Below the pieces are notes generated by a model. The model was not told the origin of the DNA. It did not search any database and was given only the letters and a program-made list of their open reading frames with translations. Source: Pedobacter aquae (GTDB lineage Bacteria > Bacteroidota > Bacteroidia > Sphingobacteriales > Sphingobacteriaceae). Taken from it: DNA of 64,000 nt. Positions 7,937-40,438 of the stretch are shown in pieces. Where the stretch lies: positions 2,480,001-2,544,000 of the forward strand of contig NZ_CP043329.1 of NCBI RefSeq assembly GCF_008195825.1, in the 5' to 3' direction. The position numbers and the translations under genes were made by a program. How positions within the stretch are numbered: position 1 is the first letter of the stretch; every line of letters begins with the position of its first letter.

Positions 7937-9381
7937 ATGAAGATTCTACTAACAGGTGCTAATGGCTATATTGGAACCAGATTATTACCTGTGTTACTAG
8001 AAAACAAACATGAAATAGTTTGTCTGGTAAGAGATAAAAGGCGTTTCCAACAAGATAACAATTGGGAAAATCAGGTAGAAATCATCACCGGAGATTTACT
8101 TCAGGAAGAGTCTTTACAAGAAATCCCTAAAGATATAGATGCTGCTTACTATCTGGTTCATTCTATGAGCAGTACAGATTTTAGCGATTTAGAAAAACTA
8201 TCTGCACATCATTTTATCAAAGCTTTAGAAAAAACCAACTGTAAGCAAATCATCTACCTCACAGGTATTGTTAATGATGAAAATTTATCAGTCCATCTAA
8301 AATCTAGATTAGGAGTAGAAGATATCCTAAAAACATCGCATATAGCGCATACTTACCTAAGAGCAGCTATTATTATTGGTTCTGGTAGTGCTTCGTTTGA
8401 GATTATTAGAGATCTAACAGAAAAGCTGCCTGTAATGATAGCGCCAAAATGGCTAAAAACCCGCTGCCAGCCCATTGCCATAAGAGATGTCTTGGCTTAT
8501 TTACATGGTGTTTTAGGGAACAGCAAAGCATTTAATAAAACCTTAGATATTGGTGGGCCAGATATACTTACCTACAAGCAAATGCTTTTACTTTATGCAA
8601 AAGAAAGGCATATTAAACGTTGGATTTTTACGGTTCCGGTTCTTACACCCAGATTATCATCATACTGGCTAAACTTGGTAACATCTGTAAACTACAGTAT
8701 CGCCAGTAGCTTGGTAGAAAGTATGCGTAATGAGGTGATTTGTAAAGATGATGAAATTAAGAAAATTGTTACGCATGAGTGTGTAAGCTACCAAACAGCT
8801 TTACAACTGGCCTTTGAAAAAATAGAACAAAACTCTATTGTATCTAGCTGGCGTGATGCCTTAAACCGTGGCTTTTTAGAAACCAGTTTTATGGACCAAG
8901 TTAAAGTACCACAAAACGGAACTTTAGCGTATAAAGTTAAACTCGACTTAAATCGGGATAAAAACGAAGTGCTTCAAAATATTTGGGCCATTGGCGGTAA
9001 AAGAGGCTGGTACTACCTAGATTGGCTTTGGAATTTAAGAGGTTGATTGATAAACTAGCTGGCGGTGTGGGCACTAGAAGAGGGAGAAGAAGTGATGTAA
9101 GTCTTAACGCTGGCGATGCTGTTGACTTTTGGCGTGTTATCTTAGCAGATAAAAAGAATGCTAGGCTTTTATTATATGCAGAAATGCGCTTACCCGGAGA
9201 AGCATGGCTAGAATTTAAAATTATTGATAGACCAACAGGAAGTATCTTAAGCCAAGTGGCTACCTTTAGGCCTAGAGGCCTTTGGGGCCGTATCTATTGG
9301 TGGATATTATGGCCTTTTCACTATTTCATTTTTAATGGAATGGCACTTAACTTAATGAATTACAAAGATAAAGTGCAATAA
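7937..9381 (+). pseudogene. SDR (NmrA-like) oxidoreductase with C-terminal DUF2867 domain, one frameshift
   Basis: The N-terminal part is an extended SDR/NmrA-type Rossmann domain: TGANGYIGTRLL at residues 7-18, then AYYLVHSM and a YLTGI segment. The C-terminal DUF2867 domain is split between two frames. Frame one stops after WLWNLRG at 9046. A second frame continues DKLAGGVGTRRGRRS to 9381, ending in LPGEAWLEF and a hydrophobic tail. One extra T at 9043-9044 joins them (LRG-LIDKL), giving about 481 residues, the usual length for this family. Substrate is unknown. Such genes often lie near photolyases, as here. Confidence 0.85.
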
Positions 9382-30366: not shown

Positions 30367-31266
30367 TTAAGAAGCTATGCTCATATTTAACTTTTCTATG
30401 ATACTTGCAAACTCTCTAATATTTTTCACAATAATAATTTTCTCTGCCTTATTGGTCTCTTGATTAGTGATTAAACTGCCTGTAAGGATTAAAGGCGTTG
30501 TACCAATAGCGGTTTTAATTTTGGAAATTGCATCATCTACATCAGTATCTGTGTTTAATACAGTTAAAACCGACAAAACGAAATCGGGTTCGTAGTAGTT
30601 TACAACTTCTGTAAGACTCTCGTAAGGAAGGTTTTGCCCTAAGTATAAAACATGGTGACCATTGCTTCTTAGCATGTATTGCGCAAACAGCAAACCTACC
30701 TGATGATGCTCATTAGGGGGTAAAAATAATATGTATCTTTTACCTTGTTTATTTGTTTTTTTATTGAATTGGGTAGTACAATAAATGATTTTCTGTTCTA
30801 TTTTATGAGTAGCAAAGTGCTCATGGGCCGGATTAATGGTGCCAACCTGCCACATAAAACCTACTTTTCTTAAAAAAGGGAAAACGATTTCGGCTACAGC
30901 AGTTTCCATTCCCATCTCTCTTATACAGGTACTTAAAATTTCATCAAACTCATCATCATCCATTTTTAACATGGCGTTAGACAACATTTGAACCTGAATA
31001 TTAGTATTGTAATGGTTTTCTTTAAGTGAGGCAACCAGTAAATTGATTTCTTCACTATTCATTTTAGAAATCTTACTGATTTTATAGCCATTCTCATTTA
31101 ATGTGGCGATGTTTAAGAACATGCACAAATCCTGATCATCGTAATAACGGATATTTGTTTCTGTACGTTTTGGCGTAAAGAAATTATAACGCTGTTCCCA
31201 TACCCTGATGGTATGGGCTTTTATACCAGTTAAGTTCTCAATATCACTAATAGAAAATCTTTTCAC
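30367..31266 (-). CDS. MerR-family regulator with cobalamin-binding domain (CarH/LitR type)
   Basis: A 299-residue predicted B12-dependent photoreceptor. The N-terminal MerR helix-turn-helix is FSISDIENLTGIKAHTIRVWEQRY. A helical domain follows with the CarH signature W-x9-EH (Trp139, Glu149, His150). The Rossmann cobalamin-binding domain carries E-x-H-x-x-G (Glu186, His188, Gly191), where the His is the lower axial cobalt ligand. In known CarH, adenosylcobalamin-bound tetramers repress in the dark and dissociate in light. The residue after the Trp is Gln140, where Thermus CarH has His132, so photochemistry may differ. It lies next to photolyase genes on the same strand and probably controls them. 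Confidence 0.9.
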   Translation of the reverse strand: MKRFSISDIENLTGIKAHTIRVWEQRYNFFTPKRTETNIRYYDDQDLCMFLNIATLNENGYKISKISKMNSEEINLLVASLKENHYNTNIQVQMLSNAMLKMDDDEFDEILSTCIREMGMETAVAEIVFPFLRKVGFMWQVGTINPAHEHFATHKIEQKIIYCTTQFNKKTNKQGKRYILFLPPNEHHQVGLLFAQYMLRSNGHHVLYLGQNLPYESLTEVVNYYEPDFVLSVLTVLNTDTDVDDAISKIKTAIGTTPLILTGSLITNQETNKAEKIIIVKNIREFASIIEKLNMSIAS

Positions 31267-31322
31267 CTTACCTGTTTTATAGCTACTCCTGCTTTAGAGT
31301 TATTGCAGTAACAAGCTAATGT

Positions 31323-31372
31323 TAAATTTGTTTAAAGAAATACAAATTTACAAGCTGTTTAGACTTTCCAAA
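31323..31372 (-). promoter_or_regulatory. Candidate promoter and operator of the MerR gene
   Basis: On the minus strand, TTTG (31372-31369), 18 bases, then TAAATTTG (31350-31343) closely fits the Bacteroidota promoter TTTG-N19-TAnnTTTG. The -7 box is one arm of a perfect 9-base inverted repeat: TAAATTTGT (31323-31331) and ACAAATTTA (31342-31350), spacer 10. A repeat across the -7 region suits autorepression by a MerR/CarH protein. It overlaps the end of the upstream photolyase gene. Confidence 0.5.
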
Positions 31373-32883
31373 TATTTTTTTGCTTGTTCTGTGATTTTTT
31401 CTTTCTCTTCGGGCTCAATTTTTTCCAAAAGCTTATACATCATAGCTACTCGCTGATTGTTTTTTAGCTTTTCTTCATGCTCCATATAAAAGTTCCAATA
31501 CAAGCTATTGAATGGACAAGCTTTACTACCATGTCTCTTCCCCTTATCGTAAAAACAACTTTTGCAGTAATTACTCATCTTATCAATATAATTGGCTGAT
31601 GATACATAAGGTTTACTACCCACAATTCCTCCGTCTGCAAATTGGCTCATCCCTCTGGTATTGGTAATTTGAACCCATTCAACAGCATCAGCATAAGTAC
31701 CTAAAAACCAATAATCAACTTCAGTTGGATGTATACCTGCCAACAAGGTGAAATTTCCAATCACCATTAAACGCTGTATATGATGGGCATAAGCATTTTC
31801 TAAAGAATTAGATATGCAGTGTTTTAGGCAATTCATTTTTACTTTTCCATCCCAAAACCATTGCGGTAATGTGCCAGAATAATTGAAGAAGTTTTTTTCT
31901 TTGAAAGCAGGCATTTCTACCCAATATATCCCCCTCATATACTCTCGCCACCCTATAACCTGTCTTGTAAAACCTTCTACTTGAGCTATAGTAATACTAT
32001 GTTGGTGCAACTCCCAATACTTAATAACCTGTTGTACAACCTCGCTGGGGCTGATGATTTTTAAATTGAGTACAAAAGATAATCTGGAGTGGAAAAGTGT
32101 TACATGCTCTTTTAGCATAGCATCTTCATAAGTACCAAAAGCTGGCAAAAGTTCCTCGCAAAAATAATCTAATAGGGCAAAAGCTTCCTGCCTACCAACC
32201 GGATAATCAAATTCCTTTTTGTTGATTTCTCCCATATAGGGAACTTCCATTTTGTCTAGTACAGCCACCAACTCGGTTACATCTCTTTTGAAAAGTAATG
32301 GTTCTTTTAATGAAGTTTTGCCATCATATTTTTTCCTATTCTCCGCATCAAAATTCCATTGGCCTCCTATGGGATTTAGCTGGCTATCTACCAATATTTG
32401 GTGCTTCTTACGCATATAACGGTAGAAATTTTCCATCAGGTATTGCTTCTTTCCCCTAAAAAAATCTCTGACCTCATTTCTTGAAGTTAGGAAGTGGTGG
32501 GTATCGTAAACTTTGCTTTCTTTAAAGTCTTTTTGAATTTCTTTTAACGTTTCGTCTAGTCTTAATTCATCTGGTAATTGGTATTCTAACTTTTTAATAT
32601 TGAGCTTTTGCTTAAGCCAAAGTAGGTTTTCTTTAAAATCTTGCTGATTTTCTGTGCTATCCAGATAAAAGTAAATGACATGATGCCCTTGTTGTTTAAG
32701 GCTTAAGGCGAAATGCCTCATATTAAGGAAGAAGCCAATAATTTTTTGGATATGATGCTTCACATATAATTGTTCTGGCATAATTTCCATCATCACATAA
32801 GTGACATCCTTTTGCTTATCAGCAAACCAAGGATGTTGCAAATTGAGTTGATCTCCTAAAATTAACCTTAAGGTTTTAGACAT
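31348..32883 (-). CDS. Cryptochrome/photolyase-related protein, FeS-BCP type
   Basis: A 511-residue photolyase-superfamily protein of the iron-sulfur bacterial cryptochrome/photolyase class, members of which repair (6-4) photoproducts. It starts LRLILGDQLNLQHPWF, as this class does. The FAD domain carries GFTRQVIGWREYMRGIYW and THPTEVDYWFLGTYADAVEWV-like features. C-terminal cysteines (a MNCLKHC segment, YCKSC and KACPF) fit the [4Fe-4S] ligands. The gene follows the DASH cryptochrome in the same direction with a 207-base gap, and the MerR regulator is downstream. In the gap AATGCAA (32901-32907) and TTGCATT (32915-32921) form a perfect 7-base inverted repeat near the start. Confidence 0.93.
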   Translation of the reverse strand: MSKTLRLILGDQLNLQHPWFADKQKDVTYVMMEIMPEQLYVKHHIQKIIGFFLNMRHFALSLKQQGHHVIYFYLDSTENQQDFKENLLWLKQKLNIKKLEYQLPDELRLDETLKEIQKDFKESKVYDTHHFLTSRNEVRDFFRGKKQYLMENFYRYMRKKHQILVDSQLNPIGGQWNFDAENRKKYDGKTSLKEPLLFKRDVTELVAVLDKMEVPYMGEINKKEFDYPVGRQEAFALLDYFCEELLPAFGTYEDAMLKEHVTLFHSRLSFVLNLKIISPSEVVQQVIKYWELHQHSITIAQVEGFTRQVIGWREYMRGIYWVEMPAFKEKNFFNYSGTLPQWFWDGKVKMNCLKHCISNSLENAYAHHIQRLMVIGNFTLLAGIHPTEVDYWFLGTYADAVEWVQITNTRGMSQFADGGIVGSKPYVSSANYIDKMSNYCKSCFYDKGKRHGSKACPFNSLYWNFYMEHEEKLKNNQRVAMMYKLLEKIEPEEKEKITEQAKKYLESLNSL

Positions 32884-33090
32884 GTAAAGTCAACATGGAA
32901 AATGCAATTTGGTTTTGCATTATTTTATTGAAGTTAGAACAGGCGGATGATTAAATCTAAATTATTGATTTACGGTATTTTTTAGGCAAAATTCAGATTA
33001 AAGAATGACTCCTATCTTAATCGGGATGAGATGAAATAAGTAGGAATTGCTTCGCTTCATTCACAAGGAACAAGCTCATCAATAATTCAA

Positions 33091-34434
33091 TCACATATAA
33101 TTTTCATGTACAATTTCTGAGCTACGTTCAGAAAGTTCTGGTAGCCATAGCTTTACGTATTCGCCTTTGGGGTCGTATTCTTTAGCTTGCTTTGGAATGT
33201 TGAAGTACCTATCCTCTCTAGGGTCATTACCTACACCTGCAACATAAGCCCAATTTCCCCAATTACTTGCAGGACTATAATCTACCAGTTTCTCTTCAAA
33301 ATAGGCCGCTCCCCAAGTCCAGTTTACGTTTAAGTCTTTCACTAAATAAGAAGCTACATTTTGTCTTCCTCTATTACTCATGAACCCTGTTAAGTTCAAT
33401 TCTCTCATATTAGCGTCTACGAAAGGAACTCCGGTTTTACCGGCTTTCCATTTCTCAAAAAGCTCTTCTTGGTTAGGTGCTAAATCCTGAGATTTCCCCT
33501 TCACCCCTTCTTGAATAAAGTATTGTGTGCCATGTTTTTTAAACATGAAACGGAAATAATCTCTCCAAAGCAATTCAAAAATTAGCCAATAAGTAGAATC
33601 ATTAGCCCCACGTTCTTTCTCATATTTTTTTACTTCCCAATAAACTTCTCTAGGCGAAACGCACCCAGCAGCCAACCAAGGAGATAGTTTAGAACTATAA
33701 TCGGCACCTATTAAGCCATTTCTGGTGATTTTATATTGCTTTAGAAAATCGGTCTCCCACAAATAATAGTTTAACCTTTTTAAGCCTTCAGTTTCGCCAC
33801 CTATAAAATTTATAGCTCTGCGTTGATCTGGCTGAAACTCTTCAAAACCTAAATCTTGAAGCGTAGGAATCTCCGTTTGTTCTAAATGAAGAGGAACTAC
33901 AATTTTTTCTGGCGTAGCAAATACAGAACGTATTTGCCCTTCTTTTTCTGCTTTTTTCCTGAATTTGGTAAATACATCAGGAATATCTTTTATAGGAAAA
34001 GGTAAATCTTCTTTGTGATATAAAGTATGGCCAATAAAATGCTTCAGGTTGGTTTGGCTTTTCCATAGCGCATCTTCAACTAAAGAAGAAATTTTAGTTT
34101 CCTCAGAAGCTACCTCTCTATGGTGATAAACCTCATCTACTTGATGTTTTTTAACTATTTCTGGAAGTATTTCTTCCGGTAAACCGGTATACACCATTAA
34201 GTCTCCACCTAATTTTTGTAACGAAAGTCTTAAATCTGTAACGCTTTCAATGGTAAACTGAGCTCTAAAAACACCGGTTTTTTGTGTTTGATAAACAGAC
34301 TGCGTGTAATAACGAGTATCAAAAATATAGACAGGAAGAATTTTGGCACCTTTTAAAGTAGCTTCAAGCAATATTTCATTGTCATGAATACGTAGATCAT
34401 TCCTGAACCAAACTAATATCGTTTTACCACTCAT
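33091..34434 (-). CDS. DASH-family cryptochrome
   Basis: A 447-residue flavoprotein of the CRY-DASH class, which can repair single-stranded or looped DNA dimers and may also signal. The N-terminus is ILVWFRNDLRIHDNEIL. The C-terminal FAD domain has ELLWRDYFRFMFKKHG, GVPFVDANMRELNLTGFMSNRGRQ, VNWTWGAAYFEEKLVDY, WGNWAYVAGVGNDPREDRYF and NIPKQAKEYDPKGEY, diagnostic of CRY-DASH. The DUF2256 gene lies directly upstream on the same strand, with a 38-base gap, so they are probably co-transcribed. Confidence 0.96.
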   Translation of the reverse strand: MSGKTILVWFRNDLRIHDNEILLEATLKGAKILPVYIFDTRYYTQSVYQTQKTGVFRAQFTIESVTDLRLSLQKLGGDLMVYTGLPEEILPEIVKKHQVDEVYHHREVASEETKISSLVEDALWKSQTNLKHFIGHTLYHKEDLPFPIKDIPDVFTKFRKKAEKEGQIRSVFATPEKIVVPLHLEQTEIPTLQDLGFEEFQPDQRRAINFIGGETEGLKRLNYYLWETDFLKQYKITRNGLIGADYSSKLSPWLAAGCVSPREVYWEVKKYEKERGANDSTYWLIFELLWRDYFRFMFKKHGTQYFIQEGVKGKSQDLAPNQEELFEKWKAGKTGVPFVDANMRELNLTGFMSNRGRQNVASYLVKDLNVNWTWGAAYFEEKLVDYSPASNWGNWAYVAGVGNDPREDRYFNIPKQAKEYDPKGEYVKLWLPELSERSSEIVHENYM

Positions 34435-34472
34435 ATCAAGGTTTATAATTTAAAATGCCTGCAATTTGGTTA

Positions 34473-34625
34473 TTATTTCATATTTCGGCAACATTCTGAG
34501 CAATATTTTACTTCTTCCCAACATTTTTCCCACTTTTTACGCCAAGAGAAAGGCTTATGGCAAGAAATACAAAGCTTTGATGGTAAATGAGCCTTACTAA
34601 TAACTTTACCGCTTTTGTTCTTCAT
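34473..34625 (-). CDS. DUF2256 small zinc-ribbon-like protein
   Basis: A 50-residue ORF starting at the ATG at 34625 and stopping at 34473. The translation runs [19 protein letters not shown], then [17 protein letters not shown], then [14 protein letters not shown]. This matches DUF2256, small proteins with two Cys pairs (CxxC and CxxC/CC) that probably bind zinc. DUF2256 genes recur next to CRY-DASH genes, as here. Function is unknown. It is divergent from the TIGR03643 gene, with only 40 bases between the starts. Confidence 0.85.
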
Positions 34626-34665
34626 GATGTTTAAACAATAAAATACTTCGGATGTTTAAAACATA
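34626..34665. promoter_or_regulatory. Divergent 40-base control region with GATGTTTAAA repeats
   Basis: The whole gap between the divergent DUF2256 and TIGR03643 starts. GATGTTTAAACA (34626-34637, containing the palindrome TGTTTAAACA) and GATGTTTAAAACA (34651-34663) are direct near-copies 25 bases apart. The compact space suggests one shared regulatory site. Confidence 0.4.
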
Positions 34666-34953
34666 ATGAAACAAGATTTTAAACACTTTAGTCAAGTAGA
34701 TATTGATAGAATTATAGAGATGGCCTGGGAAGACCGCACTCCTTTTGAAGCTATAGCTTATCAGTTTAAACTATCAGAACAAGAGGTGATTAGGCTAATG
34801 AGAAGAGAGCTCAAACCGTCAAGCTGGAGACTTTGGAGAGAGCGAGCTCACCAGGTTTCTATCAAACATCAAAAGAAAAGAGAGCAAGACGTAAGCCGCT
34901 TTAAATGTTCATTGCAACGTCAAATTACGTTAAACAAAATCTCTAAGCGATAA
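34666..34953 (+). CDS. TIGR03643-family small basic protein
   Basis: A 95-residue basic protein. Residues 10-45 (DIDRIIEMAWEDRTPFEAIA, then FKLSEQEVIRLMRREL) form a helix-turn-helix-like unit, and SSWRLWRERAHQVSIKHQKKRE follows. This matches TIGR03643, a short family of unknown function often found near CRY-DASH and DUF2256 genes. A role in DNA binding is possible from the fold and charge, but is inference. The last 15 residues are basic. Confidence 0.8.
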   Translation: MKQDFKHFSQVDIDRIIEMAWEDRTPFEAIAYQFKLSEQEVIRLMRRELKPSSWRLWRERAHQVSIKHQKKREQDVSRFKCSLQRQITLNKISKR

Positions 34954-34964
34954 TCTATCGTACA

Positions 34965-34998
34965 TTTGTTTAAGAAATATCTATAAAAGTTAAACAAA
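34965..34998. promoter_or_regulatory. Inverted repeat TTTGTTTAA/TTAAACAAA upstream of PTPS
   Basis: TTTGTTTAA (34965-34973) and TTAAACAAA (34990-34998) form a perfect 9-base inverted repeat with a 16-base spacer, 27 bases before the PTPS ATG. TACATTTG (34961-34968) fits the -7 consensus and overlaps the left arm. A further TTAAACAAA lies at 34930-34938. The 9-mer also occurs upstream of the FKBP gene (23126-23134), so specificity is unproven. Confidence 0.35.
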
Positions 34999-35024
34999 AC
35001 TACATCCTTGATGTTAAACTTACA

Positions 35025-35438
35025 ATGAAACAGAAAATAGCCGTTTACAGAAAAGAACATTTTAATGCCGCACACAGACTTCATAACCCTTTGTGGAGTG
35101 ATGAAGAAAACAAAAAAGTTTTTGGCAAGTGTAATAATCCCAGCTTCCACGGCCATAATTATGAACTTATCGTAAAAGTTATAGGCTACACCGATGAGCA
35201 AACAGGTTATTTGGTAGATATGAAAATCTTATCAGACATTATCCAAGAGCATGTTGTAGAAAAATTTGACCATAAGAACCTCAATTTAGATGTGGCAGAG
35301 TTTAAAGACTTAAACCCTACTGCAGAAAATATTGCCATGGTAATTTGGAATATACTAAGAGCGCAAATAGACAATGCGCTAGATCTTTATGTTACACTTT
35401 TTGAAACTGAAAGAAACTATGTTGAGTACCCAGCTTAA
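35025..35438 (+). CDS. 6-pyruvoyl-tetrahydropterin synthase-like protein (PTPS/QueD family)
   Basis: A 137-residue zinc enzyme of the PTPS family that acts on dihydroneopterin triphosphate. HFNAAHRL gives the first zinc histidine. GKCNNPSFHGHNY holds the catalytic Cys and the HGH pair, and FDHKNLN is the Asp-His element. The C-terminal ETERNYVEY carries the substrate-binding Glu. The GKCNNP motif resembles the biopterin-type synthase more than typical QueD. With folE and an SDR directly downstream, a pterin cofactor pathway is likelier than queuosine, but this is inference. Confidence 0.88.
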   Translation: MKQKIAVYRKEHFNAAHRLHNPLWSDEENKKVFGKCNNPSFHGHNYELIVKVIGYTDEQTGYLVDMKILSDIIQEHVVEKFDHKNLNLDVAEFKDLNPTAENIAMVIWNILRAQIDNALDLYVTLFETERNYVEYPA

Positions 35439-36102
35439 ACCACTAAAAAAAGATTTACTAACCCATTTTGAGGAGTTAGGCGATGAACATATTGGCACTT
35501 CTTACGATACACCGCTAAGAGACGATGCCTTTGATTTAGATGATGATGTTAAAATAGACCAGATTGCCCATCATTTTAAGCATATTATGGATATTTTAGG
35601 TCTTGATCTTACTGATGATAGCCTAAGAGGTACTCCGCAAAGAGTAGCTAAAATGTATGTGAAAGAAATTTTCAAAGGTTTAAATCCGGCTAATAAGCCT
35701 GATATGAAGCTGTTTGATAATAAATACCAGTACAATCAAATGCTGGTAGAAAAAAATATCACTTTATACAGCAATTGCGAGCATCATTTTGTACCTATTA
35801 TAGGTAGAGCACATGTAGCTTACATTAGCAATGGTAAAGTAATTGGCTTATCAAAGCTTAACAGAATTGTTCAATATTATGCGCAAAGACCGCAAGTACA
35901 AGAACGCTTAACCATGCAAATTGCTAACGAGCTAAAGCAAGCTTTAGGTACAGAAGATGTAGCTGTTGTTATTGATGCTACACACTTATGTGTTTCATCT
36001 AGAGGGATTAAAGATGTGCAAAGTTCAACAGTTACTGCAGAATACGGTGGTAAGTTTTTGGATATTGATACCCGTAATGAATTTTTAAAACACATAGGAT
36101 AA
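35419..36102 (+). CDS. folE: GTP cyclohydrolase I
   Basis: Converts GTP to 7,8-dihydroneopterin triphosphate, the first step of folate and biopterin synthesis. Visible motifs are GTPQRVAKMYVKEIF, SNCEHHFVPIIGRAHVAYI with the zinc and catalytic Cys and His residues, GLSKLNRIVQYYAQRPQVQERLT and TATHLCVSSRGI-like DATHLCVSSRG. From ATG 35419 it overlaps the PTPS end by 20 bases; an upstream ATG at 35389 is less likely. The product length is about 227. Its pairing with photolyases suggests supply of a pterin antenna or related cofactor. Confidence 0.95.
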   Translation: MLSTQLKPLKKDLLTHFEELGDEHIGTSYDTPLRDDAFDLDDDVKIDQIAHHFKHIMDILGLDLTDDSLRGTPQRVAKMYVKEIFKGLNPANKPDMKLFDNKYQYNQMLVEKNITLYSNCEHHFVPIIGRAHVAYISNGKVIGLSKLNRIVQYYAQRPQVQERLTMQIANELKQALGTEDVAVVIDATHLCVSSRGIKDVQSSTVTAEYGGKFLDIDTRNEFLKHIG

Positions 36103-36103
36103 C

Positions 36104-36802
36104 ATGAATTATTTAGTAATTGGCGGCAGTACAGGTATAGGTTTAGCATTAGTTGAAAAGCTAATTGCTGATGGGCATGATGTTATTGCTGTTTCTAGGC
36201 ACAGAGGAGAACTACCTTTAGAAGCAAAATTTATTGAATTAGATATTTTAGGTGATGTTGCTGTTTTAAAAGATCATTTACCAGAAACTATTCATGGTTT
36301 AGCTTATTGCCCAGGCACTATTAATTTGAAGCCATTTTCTAGACTTACAGCAGACGATTTTAGAAAAGATTACGAAGTAAATGTTATTGGCGCTGTAAAA
36401 GTTATTCAGCAAGTTTTGCCACAACTTAAGGCATCTAAACAAGCTAGTATTTTAATGTTTAGCACTGTAGCTGCCAAAGCAGGGATGGGTTTCCATGCAT
36501 CTATAGCAGCTGCTAAAAGCGCTATTGAAGGTTTAACCGTTTCTTTGGCGGCAGAATTTGCAGCTTCAAACATAAGGGTTAATACTTTAGCGCCTTCTTT
36601 AACAGATACGCCTTTAGCTGCTAGCTTACTGGCTACACCAGAAAGAAGAGAAGCTTCGGAGAAAAGGCATCCTTTAGGAAGAGTTGGTACCGCAGAAGAA
36701 CTTGCAGAAGCTGCTTATTTCTTGCTATCAGAAAAAAGCTCTTGGATAACCGGGCAGGTTATAGGTATAGATGGTGGAATGTCTACTTTAAAATCATTTT
36801 AA
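36104..36802 (+). CDS. Short-chain dehydrogenase/reductase lacking the catalytic Tyr
   Basis: A 232-residue SDR: nucleotide-binding GGSTGIGLALVEKL at residues 7-20, LAYCPG and a FSTVAAK segment with the active-site Ser. The usual Tyr-x3-Lys is replaced by Ile-Ala-Ala-Ala-Lys within GFHASIAAAKSAIEGL, so the catalytic Tyr is missing. The C-terminus is SWITGQVIGIDGGMSTL. The gene begins two bases after folE, in the same operon. It could be a pterin reductase, but the absent Tyr makes a normal SDR reaction doubtful. Confidence 0.9.
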   Translation: MNYLVIGGSTGIGLALVEKLIADGHDVIAVSRHRGELPLEAKFIELDILGDVAVLKDHLPETIHGLAYCPGTINLKPFSRLTADDFRKDYEVNVIGAVKVIQQVLPQLKASKQASILMFSTVAAKAGMGFHASIAAAKSAIEGLTVSLAAEFAASNIRVNTLAPSLTDTPLAASLLATPERREASEKRHPLGRVGTAEELAEAAYFLLSEKSSWITGQVIGIDGGMSTLKSF

Positions 36803-36803
36803 G

Positions 36804-37445
36804 ATGAAGCATCTCACTTCAGAGCAAATTACAGAACTCCCATCCAGATATCGTACTACATTTATGAATAGTATTTCTGGGTTTAAGAGTTTACAAATGG
36901 TTGCTACCAAAAGTAAAACTACAGGTGCAACCAATATTGCTTTGTTTAACTCTATTTTTCATATTGGCGCCAACCCAGCATATATTGGCATGGTAGTAAG
37001 ACCAGATGGACCAGAGCATGAAACTTTAAAAAACATCAGCGAAAGCGGATTTTATACCCTTAATAATGTAAAAGAAGAGTTTTATAAAGCGGCGCACCAA
37101 ACAAGCGCTAGGTATAAAGCAGGCGAATCTGAATTTGCTGCCTGTGGTTTTTTGGAAGAGTATCTAGAAGGTTTTGATGCTCCTTTTGTTAAAGAATCAT
37201 CGGTTAAATTGGGCTTAAAGCTCAAAGAGATTATACCTATTACGCTAAATAATACCCGTATTGTAATTGGTGAAGTACTACATGTTTGTGTTGATGAAAA
37301 TTTAATTTCGGCAGATGGTTATATAAACCTAGCAGCAACAAATACGGTAACAGTAGCTGGTTTAGATGCTTACCACAGCACACAATTATTAGCCAGATTA
37401 AGCTATGCACAACCAGAAAAACATCCGGAAGAAATAAACGTTTAA
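36804..37445 (+). CDS. Flavin reductase-like (FMN-binding) domain protein
   Basis: A 213-residue protein of the flavin-reductase-like FMN-binding fold: YRTTFMNSISGFKSLQMVAT, then NPAYIGMVVRPDGPEHETLKNI, then GFYTLNNVKEEFYKAAHQTSARY. It starts one base after the SDR stop, so it is clearly in the same operon. It probably binds FMN and may reduce flavins for the photolyases, or belong to another redox function of the light cluster. The substrate is unproven. Confidence 0.87.
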   Translation: MKHLTSEQITELPSRYRTTFMNSISGFKSLQMVATKSKTTGATNIALFNSIFHIGANPAYIGMVVRPDGPEHETLKNISESGFYTLNNVKEEFYKAAHQTSARYKAGESEFAACGFLEEYLEGFDAPFVKESSVKLGLKLKEIIPITLNNTRIVIGEVLHVCVDENLISADGYINLAATNTVTVAGLDAYHSTQLLARLSYAQPEKHPEEINV

Positions 37446-37464
37446 GAATTAATTAATCTTGAAG

Positions 37465-38151
37465 ATGATGGAAAATAAAATCTCAGAAAAAAAGCCAAAA
37501 GCAATAGGTACCAAAGAAAAAATTCAGAACGCTTATATAGAATACCTATTAACCGAGGGTAAGCAGCCTGCATCGGTTTTTATTTTTGCGAAGAAGAATA
37601 AAATGGCCGAGGAAGAATTTTATAAATTTTATGCCTCTTTTAGCGCTATAGAAGCTGATATCTGGAATGATTTATTTTCTAAAACCATAGCCGAGATTAA
37701 AAGTCAAGAAGTTTGGGAACAATACTCGGCCAGAGAAAAAGCCCTTTCTTTCTTCTACAGTTTTTTTGAACTTTTAAAAAGCAAAAGAAGTTATGCTTCG
37801 CATAGCATAAGAAGCTTCAAAAAAGGTCTTAAAACACCTATAGCATTAAGTTTTGCCAAAGAAACTTTTAATGAATTTAGCACTCAAATTATACAAGAGG
37901 GTATAGAAAGCGGCGAGTTATCAGAAAGAAAGTTTATAAGCGATAAATATGTGGATGCGCTTTGGTTACAAGTAGCCTTCTTATTAAACTTCTGGACCAA
38001 AGATCAATCTGCAGGTTTTGAAAAAACCGATGAAGCTATAGAAAAAGGTATTAACGTAACTTTTGATTTATTCCAGCGCTCTCCTATTGATAATTTATTT
38101 GAATACGGAAAGTTTTTAGCACAACATGCAGGTATTAAAATGGCTTTTTAA
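37465..38151 (+). CDS. TetR/AcrR-like regulator
   Basis: A protein of about 228 residues from ATG 37465. Residues 15-60 (TKEKIQNAYIEYLLTEGKQP, then VFIFAKKNKMAEEEFYKFYAS) form a TetR-type helix-turn-helix. The rest is all-helical and includes AREKALSFFYSFFELL, consistent with a TetR ligand-binding domain. It may regulate the adjacent ABC1 kinase or the pterin operon, but no operator is evident. A heptanucleotide array follows directly. Confidence 0.8.
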   Translation: MMENKISEKKPKAIGTKEKIQNAYIEYLLTEGKQPASVFIFAKKNKMAEEEFYKFYASFSAIEADIWNDLFSKTIAEIKSQEVWEQYSAREKALSFFYSFFELLKSKRSYASHSIRSFKKGLKTPIALSFAKETFNEFSTQIIQEGIESGELSERKFISDKYVDALWLQVAFLLNFWTKDQSAGFEKTDEAIEKGINVTFDLFQRSPIDNLFEYGKFLAQHAGIKMAF

Positions 38152-38160
38152 CTAAATATT

Positions 38161-38328
38161 AAGGTGCAAGGATTAAGGAGCAAGGAATAAGGATTAAGGA
38201 GCAAGGATTAAGGAGCAAGGATTAAGGATTAAAGAGCAAGGAATAAGGATTAAGGAGCAAGGATTAAGGAGCAAGGAATAAGGATTAAAGAGCAAGGAAT
38301 AAGGATTAAGGAGCAAGGATTAAAGATT
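38161..38328. repeat. Heptanucleotide tandem array, 24 units
   Basis: Twenty-four heptamers in perfect register from 38161 to 38328. They are nearly all variants of AAGGATT, AAGGAGC, AAGGAAT and AAAGAGC, in mixed order. No ORF spans the array. It separates the TetR gene from the ABC1 kinase gene. Confidence 0.92.
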
Positions 38329-38403
38329 GAAAAATAAAGGATGGATTTGAGAATTAAAACCATAGAATCTTGTATCATCTAATCTATATACCCACATATA
38401 AAA

Positions 38404-39714
38404 ATGAAAGAGCAAAACAGTATTCCATCTAGTAAAGTAGCCCGTTCTGCAAAATTTGTAGGCACAGGTATAAAAATAGGTGGTAATTATATCAAGCATT
38501 ATTCTAAAAAACTTTTCAACCCAGATTTAAGTAAGGATGAATTGAATGAGGATAATGCAAGCGACATCTACAACTCTTTAAGTCAGCTTAAAGGTAGTGC
38601 TTTAAAAGTTGCACAAATGCTTAGCATGGATAAAAACATCCTGCCAAAGGCTTATGTAGACAAGTTTTCTTTATCGCAATACAATGCGCCACCTTTAAGC
38701 GGACCATTGATTGTACAATCTTTCAGAAAGCATTTTGGTAAAACGCCAGAAAAAATATACGATACTTTCAATTTAAAATCAACCAATGCAGCATCTATTG
38801 GGCAGGTGCACCAGGCAACATTAAATGGAAAAAAATTGGCTGTAAAAATCCAATATCCGGGTGTTGGCAGCTCTATTTCGTCAGATTTAAAATTGGTAAA
38901 ACCTTTCGCCTTTAGGTTGTTAGGCATGAGCGAAAAAGAGCTTGATATCTACATGAAAGAAGTTGAAGAGCGTTTGGTAGAAGAAACAGATTATGAATTA
39001 GAAGTAAAACGCTCTTTACAGTTTTCTAACGCTTGCGCTGATATTCCTAATTTGGTTTTCCCGGCATACTATCCAGAACTATCTGGCCCAAGAATTATTA
39101 CCATGGATTGGATAGAGGGCTTACACCTCAAAGAGTTTTTACAAACCAACCCTAGTCAGGAATTAAGAAACCAAATTGGCCAAGCACTTTGGGATTTTTA
39201 TAATTTTCAACAACATGAATTAAGAGCGGTACATGCCGACCCTCATCCGGGTAATTTCTTAATTACCCCAGAAGGTAAACTAGGTATTATTGATTTTGGA
39301 TGTATTAAAGAAATTCCAGATGACTTTTACTATCCTTTTTTCTCTACTACATCAACAGAATTATTAAATAATAAAGAAGAAACTATTAAAGCTTTTAGGC
39401 TTTTAGAGATGATTTTACCAAAAGATAACGCTCAGCAAATAGAGTTCTATTATCAAAATTATAAAGAGATGATTACCCTTTTTGCAGAACCTTATATGAC
39501 TGGCGAATTTGATTTTGGGCAAACCCATTTCTTTGATGCTTTATATACTTTTGGCGAGAAAATAGCTAAAATGCCTGAGTTTAAGCAGGCTCGTGGTGTA
39601 AAACATTTCATTTATGTTAACCGCACCAATTTTGGCTTGTACAATATTTTACACGAGTTAAAAGCAAATATCAGAACAGATACTTACAGGCCACATGTAC
39701 AATTGGCTTACTAA
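38404..39714 (+). CDS. ABC1/AarF (UbiB-like) atypical kinase
   Basis: A 436-residue ABC1-family protein. Early LKGSALKVAQMLSMDKNILP is the variant of the KxGQ motif (Lys-Val-Ala-Gln). ASIGQVHQATLNGKKLAVKIQYPGV holds the Ala-rich loop and the conserved Lys. HADPHPGNFLI and GIIDFGCIKE are the catalytic loop and metal site. Family members act in quinone or lipid metabolism. In Bacteroidota this type often follows a TetR gene, as here. It lies 252 bases after it, with the heptamer array between. Confidence 0.92.
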   Translation: MKEQNSIPSSKVARSAKFVGTGIKIGGNYIKHYSKKLFNPDLSKDELNEDNASDIYNSLSQLKGSALKVAQMLSMDKNILPKAYVDKFSLSQYNAPPLSGPLIVQSFRKHFGKTPEKIYDTFNLKSTNAASIGQVHQATLNGKKLAVKIQYPGVGSSISSDLKLVKPFAFRLLGMSEKELDIYMKEVEERLVEETDYELEVKRSLQFSNACADIPNLVFPAYYPELSGPRIITMDWIEGLHLKEFLQTNPSQELRNQIGQALWDFYNFQQHELRAVHADPHPGNFLITPEGKLGIIDFGCIKEIPDDFYYPFFSTTSTELLNNKEETIKAFRLLEMILPKDNAQQIEFYYQNYKEMITLFAEPYMTGEFDFGQTHFFDALYTFGEKIAKMPEFKQARGVKHFIYVNRTNFGLYNILHELKANIRTDTYRPHVQLAY

Positions 39715-39808: not shown

Positions 39809-40111
39809 TTAAACTTGAAGAGTTAGTTTTAAATGCCCTCCCAAACCTTTTTGAATGATTTTCATTAAAGTAGAAAGTCTGATATCAGAAGCATCATTCT
39901 CAATTCTGGAAATATAGGATTTATTAGTACCGCATTTTTTTGCAAGTTCTTCTTGTGTCATTCCTAACTTAGTTCTGGCTTCTTCAAGTAATGCACCAAG
40001 TCTGAAAGCTTCAAATTGTTGTTCCCATTCTTCTCTTTTTGGATTTCCCTTTTTTCCGTATTTTTTATCTAGAATTTCGTCTAAAGTTGTGATATTTTTT
40101 TTAGTTATCAT
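39809..40111 (-). CDS. Antitoxin, XRE/HigA-type helix-turn-helix
   Basis: A 100-residue protein with a C-terminal XRE helix-turn-helix: EARTKLGMTQEELAKKCGTN, then KSYISRIENDASDIRLSTLM. It overlaps the toxin gene's end by 11 bases, with the toxin first, the order of higBA-type systems. It should bind the operon promoter and neutralise the toxin. The N-terminal part (Lys-rich, YGKKGNPKREEWEQ) is probably involved in toxin contact. Confidence 0.88.
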   Translation of the reverse strand: MITKKNITTLDEILDKKYGKKGNPKREEWEQQFEAFRLGALLEEARTKLGMTQEELAKKCGTNKSYISRIENDASDIRLSTLMKIIQKGLGGHLKLTLQV

Positions 40112-40438
40112 TTTGATATTCCTCCATTATTCTTAGTGCCTTTTCAATTTCCTGTTTCGGTGTCTTTTGGCTTTTTTTCTGAAAAGCGTTTCCAAGAACA
40201 ACTAAATTTCCTTTATCGAAAAATGAAAATATGCGATAAATATTATTTCCAACCTCTACTCGTATTTCATAAAGTCCTTTTGTTCCCTGTAGATGCTTAA
40301 AAAGCTTTTCAGGAACTTTAGGAGTAACTTTTATCAGATTCAAAGTCCTTCAATTTTAGCTTGAACTTTCTCGTTCTGACTTTCATAAAAGTCTAGAAAG
40401 TAGTTTTTGTAAACTATTACTTGTCTCTCATCGCTCAC
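40101..40438 (-). pseudogene. RelE/HigB-type toxin, one frameshift
   Basis: The frame from TTG 40343 gives LIKVTPKVPEKLFKHLQGTKG, then LYEIRVEVGNNIYRIF and AFQKKSQKTPKQEIEKA, matching phage Gp49/HigB-like toxins, but lacks the N-terminus. The missing part is in another frame: GTG 40438, SDERQVIVYKNYFLDFYESQ, then NEKVQAKIEGL. One extra base at the AAA of 40342-40344 joins them (EGL-LNLIKV). Restored it has about 112 residues, the normal length. It is a ribosome-dependent mRNA interferase by family. Confidence 0.82.

Follow-up and report, generated by a model that had tools for sequence, protein, structure and literature searches.

A cluster of light-related genes at positions 30,367 to 39,714 of a 64,000-nucleotide stretch of the Pedobacter aquae chromosome (contig NZ_CP043329.1, positions 2,480,001 to 2,544,000; hereafter the window), which belongs to a 3.85-Mb genome held on one contig, is likely to be the core of a coenzyme-B12 light regulon consisting of a MerR regulator and an inverted-repeat operator. 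The MerR protein is a probable vitamin B12 light switch encoded beside DNA-repair and pterin genes; its binding to the operator motif and to adenosylcobalamin (AdoCbl), its action as a repressor and the relief of that repression by light are what we infer. The strongest support, which is indirect and drawn from genome comparison, comes from the co-occurrence of operator and MerR and from the presence of the operator at separated targets.

A recurrent half-site, TAAACAA/TTGTTTA, is shared by upstream regions in the genus, and in the window it forms the candidate operator TTTGTTTA-N18-TAAACAAA (34965..34998), an exact copy located 26 bp upstream of a gene for a 6-pyruvoyl-tetrahydropterin synthase-like protein (PTPS). 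An inverted pair precedes PTPS in 15 of 16 genus loci (13 at N18, 2 at N19; L122 has none), and the PTPS operon keeps its operator in three of the four relatives that carry this operon and merR on separate contigs. Of 15 genus loci, 13 have TAAACAA within 110 bp upstream of the gene for the small protein TIGR03643; for merR the count is 10 of 17. The P. aquae genome holds two exact operator copies, that of the window and one at contig positions 2463342-2463375, which abuts the called start codon of a gene for an extracytoplasmic function (ECF) sigma factor and has a further TTGTTTA-N19-TAAACAA pair upstream of it. A looser N18 pattern gave six matches in this genome and two for its control; those at 179389 and 3542420 lie inside open reading frames (ORFs) and were dropped as operators, while that at 3307780 lies 218 bp before an ORF of 132 amino acids. 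Another of the six, a weaker operator-like site (G000:C1:2368303-2368332; L135:3304-3333), was seen 38 bp before a lipoprotein-like ORF of 350 amino acids with no Pfam match. The plain palindrome TGTTTAAACA was uninformative, being found at 20 places in the genome compared with 12 for the backwards control.

The arrangement of the half-sites was assessed with 39 stretches from other genera that had been taken for MerR alone. Inverted TGTTTA..TAAACA pairs with spacings of 0-40 numbered 40, with 24 at N18 and 10 at N19, compared with 0.19 pairs per spacing in Markov shuffles; direct TAAACA pairs numbered 14, with no spacing reaching 3. A sample of 247 Bacteroidota genomes was then divided into 56 with and 191 without MerR (called at E <= 1e-15). 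The exact operator occurs as 70 copies in 33 genomes, the backwards control as 5 copies in 5 genomes, and all 33 operator genomes are among those with MerR, none being found in the 191 MerR-less genomes (Fisher 3e-26). Counted per genus, the operator is present in 17 of 36 with MerR and in 0 of 86 without (3e-11), and within the same class in 32 of 49 and 0 of 12, respectively (3e-5). In genus g9, all 13 MerR genomes have the operator and the lone MerR-less genome (G202) does not.

Forty of the 70 exact copies, picked away from merR, were fetched with their flanks (those left out were the copies beside merR and some others, e.g., the three of G021), and their neighbours were assigned by tblastn and Pfam. 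Thirty-nine of these sites lie outside ORFs of at least 100 amino acids, though such ORFs cover 87% of the fetched DNA; the remaining site (L201) falls within an ORF, close to its 5' end, and the start of that ORF was perhaps called too early. Homologues of the island light set, a rhodopsin or an ECF gene adjoin 18 of the 40 sites: a rhodopsin at three (L166, with a beta-carotene dioxygenase on the opposite side, L182, and L196), a flavin reductase with an FeS photolyase further down at four (L167, L169, L176, and L181), DUF2256-cryDASH-FeS photolyase at one (L172), TetR-ABC1-DUF2256-cry at one (L189), folE or PTPS-folE at four (L177, where MerR adjoins folE, L197, L198, and L199), an ECF sigma factor at three (L200, L203, and L204), and the first ORF of an SDR-photolyase group at two (L171 and L201), SDR denoting the short-chain dehydrogenase/reductase family. 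The commonest single class was unexpected; fasciclin (FAS1) genes, assigned by Pfam in every case, stand beside 12 sites (L168, L175, L178, L179, L180, L183, L185, L188, L190, L191, L192, and L202), and a surface lipoprotein under light control would be surprising. DUF2452 was found at three sites (by Pfam on L165 and by eye from similarity at the rest) and DUF2867-SDR at two (Pfam on L187), and the neighbours of five received no assignment. Since a second, unrelated gene lies opposite some sites, the target gene is not always certain. Further sites in relatives precede a CHASE3 protein (L144) and, as named by eye, an alcohol-dehydrogenase/transporter pair (L161), a nitroreductase-like ORF (L162), and a response-regulator-like ORF (L163).

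A rhodopsin gene with its own upstream N18 pair lies just past the gene for an ABC1 kinase in P. cryophilus (L015) and in a metagenome-assembled genome (L008 and L130), and G252 and G260 carry such a rhodopsin and pair on a contig other than that of merR. We lean, with modest confidence, towards a phylum-wide B12 regulon in which rhodopsin, carotenoids (via ECF), photolyase/cryptochrome, pterin synthesis, and fasciclin lipoproteins are under one cobalamin photoreceptor.

The predicted photoreceptor itself (30367..31266, minus strand; assigned from its ORF and a family search) is the single match to this protein in the P. aquae genome and is approximately 95% identical to those of its closest named relatives, Pedobacter glucosidilyticus and P. 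puniceum. It begins with a MerR winged helix-turn-helix (HTH; PF13411, 6.6e-16), followed by a four-helix bundle (PF02607) in which the Ado-pocket residues W139, E149, and H150 are kept, and a Rossmann cobalamin domain with the axial His (ExHxxG). Nearly every aligned sequence retains the Trp and Glu-His of the CarH pocket, and the position of CarH His132 is mostly Gln. The predicted model fits the CarH domains; the structure comparison returned B12 proteins of many kinds and does not separate light sensors from enzymes. The photosensor residues and the model fold thus lend indirect support to the sequence-only reading, which had called the protein a CarH/LitR-type B12 photoreceptor. With 105.8 bits against the NCBIfam CarH equivalog NF052513, below the required 400, the protein is filed as a CarH/LitR-type relative and not as that equivalog. 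Identity with class II LitR, which has no B12-binding Rossmann part, was ruled out by the presence of this part and its axial His. One relative's MerR (L016:10001-10897) has lost the Trp together with both the pocket and axial His, and the half-site is also missing upstream; judged by these losses, it may be B12-independent or decaying.

The genes of the island form two divergent groups, and the ORFs and families found at each position agree with the earlier naming. On the minus strand, merR is preceded by a half-site at 31328..31334 (minus) with no full inverted pair. Further on, towards higher coordinates, come genes for an FeS-type (6-4) photolyase/cryptochrome (31348..32883; PF04244, 1.5e-69; closest solved structure 7ykn, FeS-BCP, 1e-150), a DASH cryptochrome (33091..34434; TIGR02765, 579 bits with a cut-off of 317), and a small Cys-rich DUF2256-like protein of 50 amino acids (34476..34625), the last labeled by its own sequence and its conserved place in relatives and not by family search. 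A divergent promoter gap of 40 bp (34626..34665) contains TAAACAA at 34632-34638, with a further TGTTTAAAAC near TIGR03643. The plus-strand group, with families assigned by searches, comprises TIGR03643/DUF2805 (34666..34953), PTPS (35025..35438; PF01242; 1b66 PTPS, 1.3e-32; C-x5-HGH), GTP cyclohydrolase I FolE (35389..36102), an SDR-family protein that, from its residues, lacks the catalytic Tyr (36104..36802), a flavin-reductase-like protein (36804..37445; PF01613), a TetR-family regulator (TetR_C_23; 37459..38151; PF17931), and an ABC1/UbiB-type atypical kinase (38404..39714; PF03109). A pair of small genes at 39809-40343 (minus strand), with an XRE-type HTH, resembles a toxin-antitoxin module.

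MerR is present in 17 of the 18 genomes of the genus, and the same 17 carry an island-type folE (at least 64% identity); the MerR-less genome (G254) has only a more distant folE, at 43%. A check of gene order, proposed earlier and run here within the genus, found it conserved more than by chance: five of the 18 genomes (P. aquae, G248, G253, G262, and G263) have the full set in one uninterrupted run, and sub-blocks are kept together in most of the others. The block from cry to ABC1 is apart from FeS photolyase-merR on the same contig in G249 and G250, PTPS to ABC1 is on a different contig from merR in G252 and G255, and in G256-G259, whose merR stretches showed no FeS photolyase, the block is found outside these stretches (in G257, approximately 20 kb off on the same contig). 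In G247, cry-DUF2256 adjoins merR and a different contig carries TIGR03643-PTPS-folE-SDR-TetR-ABC1; the island of G260 and G261 is interrupted by contig ends, so that order cannot be judged. It is this splitting of the island in several genomes that made a test of the operator at separated targets possible. In P. glucosidilyticus (L006 and L014), the place that the rest of the island takes in relatives, upstream of position 8384, is occupied by a block whose members, as read by eye, are an ArsR-like regulator, a protein like arsenate reductase, and a transporter. A different genus keeps TetR-ABC1 kinase beside a photolyase-like gene (L074, L076, L078, L079, and L080). An N18 pair lies approximately 30-60 bp before the TetR match in all of these but L078, and such pairs suggest that the ABC1 kinase may belong to the light response.

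The observation that the window holds no carotenoid gene, which the sequence-only reading took as a difference from classic CarH loci, was upheld by tblastn of the window with the genome's own crtI, crtB, crtZ-like, cyclase, and ECF genes and a relative's rhodopsin, which gave no match. The difference stands for position and not otherwise, as a crt cluster starts approximately 16 kb outside the window, approximately 50 kb from the island, with an ECF gene that has the same operator. This stretch comprises the ECF sigma gene, a crtI-like gene, crtB (match at 2460381-2461103, approximately 19 kb outside the window), a lycopene cyclase gene, and a hydroxylase-like gene. Within the genus, 13 stretches, each from a different genome and with P. 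aquae among them, contain an ECF homologue of at least 40% identity, and every one has at least one N18/N19 pair. The stretches retrieved from G252, G255, G260, and G261 showed no ECF gene, and the MerR-less G254 has crtB in its crt stretch and no ECF match there. In the 39 MerR stretches from other genera, crtI-, crtB-, or crtZ-like matches occur in 31 and ECF matches in 16, two of them weak. The retention of the operator where merR and the carotenoid genes are apart argues for control in trans, and going by these arrangements the classic CarH target, carotenoid control, is probably kept in that form.

The pterin branch of the island consists of FolE and a PTPS closest to 1b66, both of which belong to the animal-type tetrahydrobiopterin route. 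In all 17 sequences read, that of the window among them, Ile, Val, or Thr stands in place of the catalytic Tyr of the SDR motif Tyr-x3-Lys, and hence a sepiapterin reductase identity is not claimed for the SDR; judged from these residues, it may not be a normal reductase. The proposal that the island folE is the sole folE was rejected, because a second PTPS-folE pair is present in the genome (L091:9440-10479; G000:C1:2996442-2997475); the folE of this second locus, distinct from that of the island, is in two frames in P. aquae and in one open frame in most relatives.

The AdoCbl form of CarH binds promoter-overlapping operators in the dark and blocks transcription, and in light the cofactor is split and the DNA released (PMC8156234). 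By the mechanism proposed here, MerR would bind adenosylcobalamin in the dark, assemble, and occupy operators built from TAAACAA, typically TTTGTTTA-N18-TAAACAAA, at or near promoters, thereby holding its target genes low; in light, the Co-C bond would be broken, MerR would leave the DNA, and the genes would be expressed. Between the full operators and the start codons that they precede, those of the ECF gene and PTPS, lie 0-26 bp, so that the operators should overlap the promoter or lie just downstream of it. Targets in the island would be DUF2256-cryDASH-(FeS photolyase), TIGR03643, PTPS-folE-SDR-flavin reductase-TetR-ABC1, and merR itself, and that in trans would be the ECF sigma gene approximately 50 kb away, which would probably switch on the crt cluster. 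The same operator and regulator would serve across the Bacteroidota with a varying mix of carotenoid, photolyase, pterin, rhodopsin, and fasciclin genes.

A number of findings limit the case for a B12 light regulon of this extent. Only half-sites are present at merR and the divergent gap, which lowered our confidence very slightly, and no N18 pair precedes TIGR03643 or merR in the genus loci. A half-site precedes the FeS photolyase gene in 1 of 10 genus loci, that one not in the window, and was found before neither of two lone folE genes nor the cry gene of L114. With 6 of 52 window ORFs, merR and PTPS included, having a half-site within 110 bp upstream, lone half-sites are weak evidence. The exact operator is missing in 23 of the 56 MerR genomes, kinship among genomes inflates the co-occurrence p-values, and the search of the phylum followed a first reading of the motif in the genus of P. 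aquae. The earlier proposal of one B12 regulon including pterin and flavin supply is supported, indirectly, for the PTPS-folE operon, whose candidate operator tracks MerR across the sampled phylum, and not for every gene; the only link to SDR, flavin reductase, TetR, and ABC1 here is their place further down the PTPS operon.

Other readings of the motif were weighed. TetR proteins usually bind palindromes, and the island tetR sits inside the operator-led operon; together with the N18 pairs before TetR in the Flavobacterium-type TetR-ABC1 stretches described above, this could make the palindrome the operator of TetR and MerR a bystander. We regard this as highly improbable, since a TetR match at E <= 1e-12 is lacking in 8 of the 33 genomes with the operator (G029, G064, G091, G115, G126, G150, G156, and G158), five TetR genomes without MerR have no exact operator (G012, G080, G095, G099, and G214), and MerR lies beside an ECF homologue (at least 40%) in 14 of 39 stretches with no TetR there, many of them with pairs before ECF. 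An ECF sigma promoter element, in place of a repressor operator, has still less to commend it; although the motif precedes the ECF gene itself as well as other light genes, and ECF factors often control their own promoter, ECF promoters are asymmetric, whereas the motif is an inverted repeat with a tight N18/N19 spacing that often occurs as two tandem copies and whose distance from the start codon varies. Moreover, 23 of the 39 MerR stretches, counted as stretches and not as whole genomes, have no ECF match, some of them with the motif.

The signal itself could be read differently, with MerR sensing B12 as a nutritional or redox cue and the regulon answering cobalamin or oxidative state. The residues indicate cobalamin binding without proving photochemistry, and the prevailing Gln at the position of CarH His132 fits such a role; the conservation of the CarH-pocket Trp and Glu-His, and neighbours that are photolyases, cryptochromes, rhodopsins, and carotenoid control, make it very unlikely. 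It is also conceivable that the cluster is a mere gene neighbourhood with each unit regulated separately, as units are scattered in several genomes and several lack the motif, but PTPS operons and ECF genes that lie apart from merR still carry the motif, and the probability of this account is very low.

A coenzyme-B12 light regulon would resemble, and differ from, known systems. As with CarH of Thermus thermophilus and Myxococcus xanthus (class I LitR), the MerR HTH, four-helix bundle, B12 Rossmann domain, and model fold are present, together with the W..EH and ExHxxG residues. The half-site is compatible with the CarH consensus nAnnTnnACAn as given in PMC8156234, matching its TnnACA core and having the further A in 79 of 154 arms; as the half-site core was set by the search pattern, this is compatibility only. 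The operator of T. thermophilus and Bacillus megaterium CarH consists of three or four 11-bp direct repeats, whereas here it is inverted (TTGTTTA-N18-TAAACAA) with N18/N19 pairs dominant, and the set of neighbours is wider. In Streptomyces, the MerR-B12 regulator LitR acts via the ECF sigma factor LitS on carotenoid genes, and it is from this system and the position of the ECF gene that ECF control of crt is deduced; unlike in LitR-LitS, the ECF/crt cluster of P. aquae is separate from merR, and the PTPS-folE operon has the operator directly. The light-induced set of the Pseudomonas class II LitR proteins PplR/PmlR likewise includes photolyase/cryptochrome, folE, and SDR genes (phrB, cryB, folE, and SDR at the pmlR1 locus), with a LOV protein used and no B12 sensing, a different operator, T(G/A)TACA-N12-TGTA(C/T)A, and a different pterin operon, folM-folE-folX, so that FolX/FolM stand where PTPS stands here (PMC9758184). 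By analogy, this parallel hints that a tetrahydropterin is needed in light, where it might serve as a cofactor, an antenna precursor, or a quencher.

Word searches of open-licence PubMed Central (PMC) articles found no report of a CarH/LitR operator or regulon in Bacteroidota and no paper on DUF2256 and TIGR03643 with cryptochrome. Bacteroidota exposed to light commonly have rhodopsins, carotenoids, and cryptochromes, and the open-licence PMC literature searched named no shared regulator for them. With a short, testable DNA sequence from which a B12 photoreceptor's targets are predicted, light responses could be charted from genome data. Should B12 be scavenged, cells short of it would, under the model, act as if always lit, and if the phylum-wide reading is true, vitamin B12 supply would gate the use of light in Bacteroidota.
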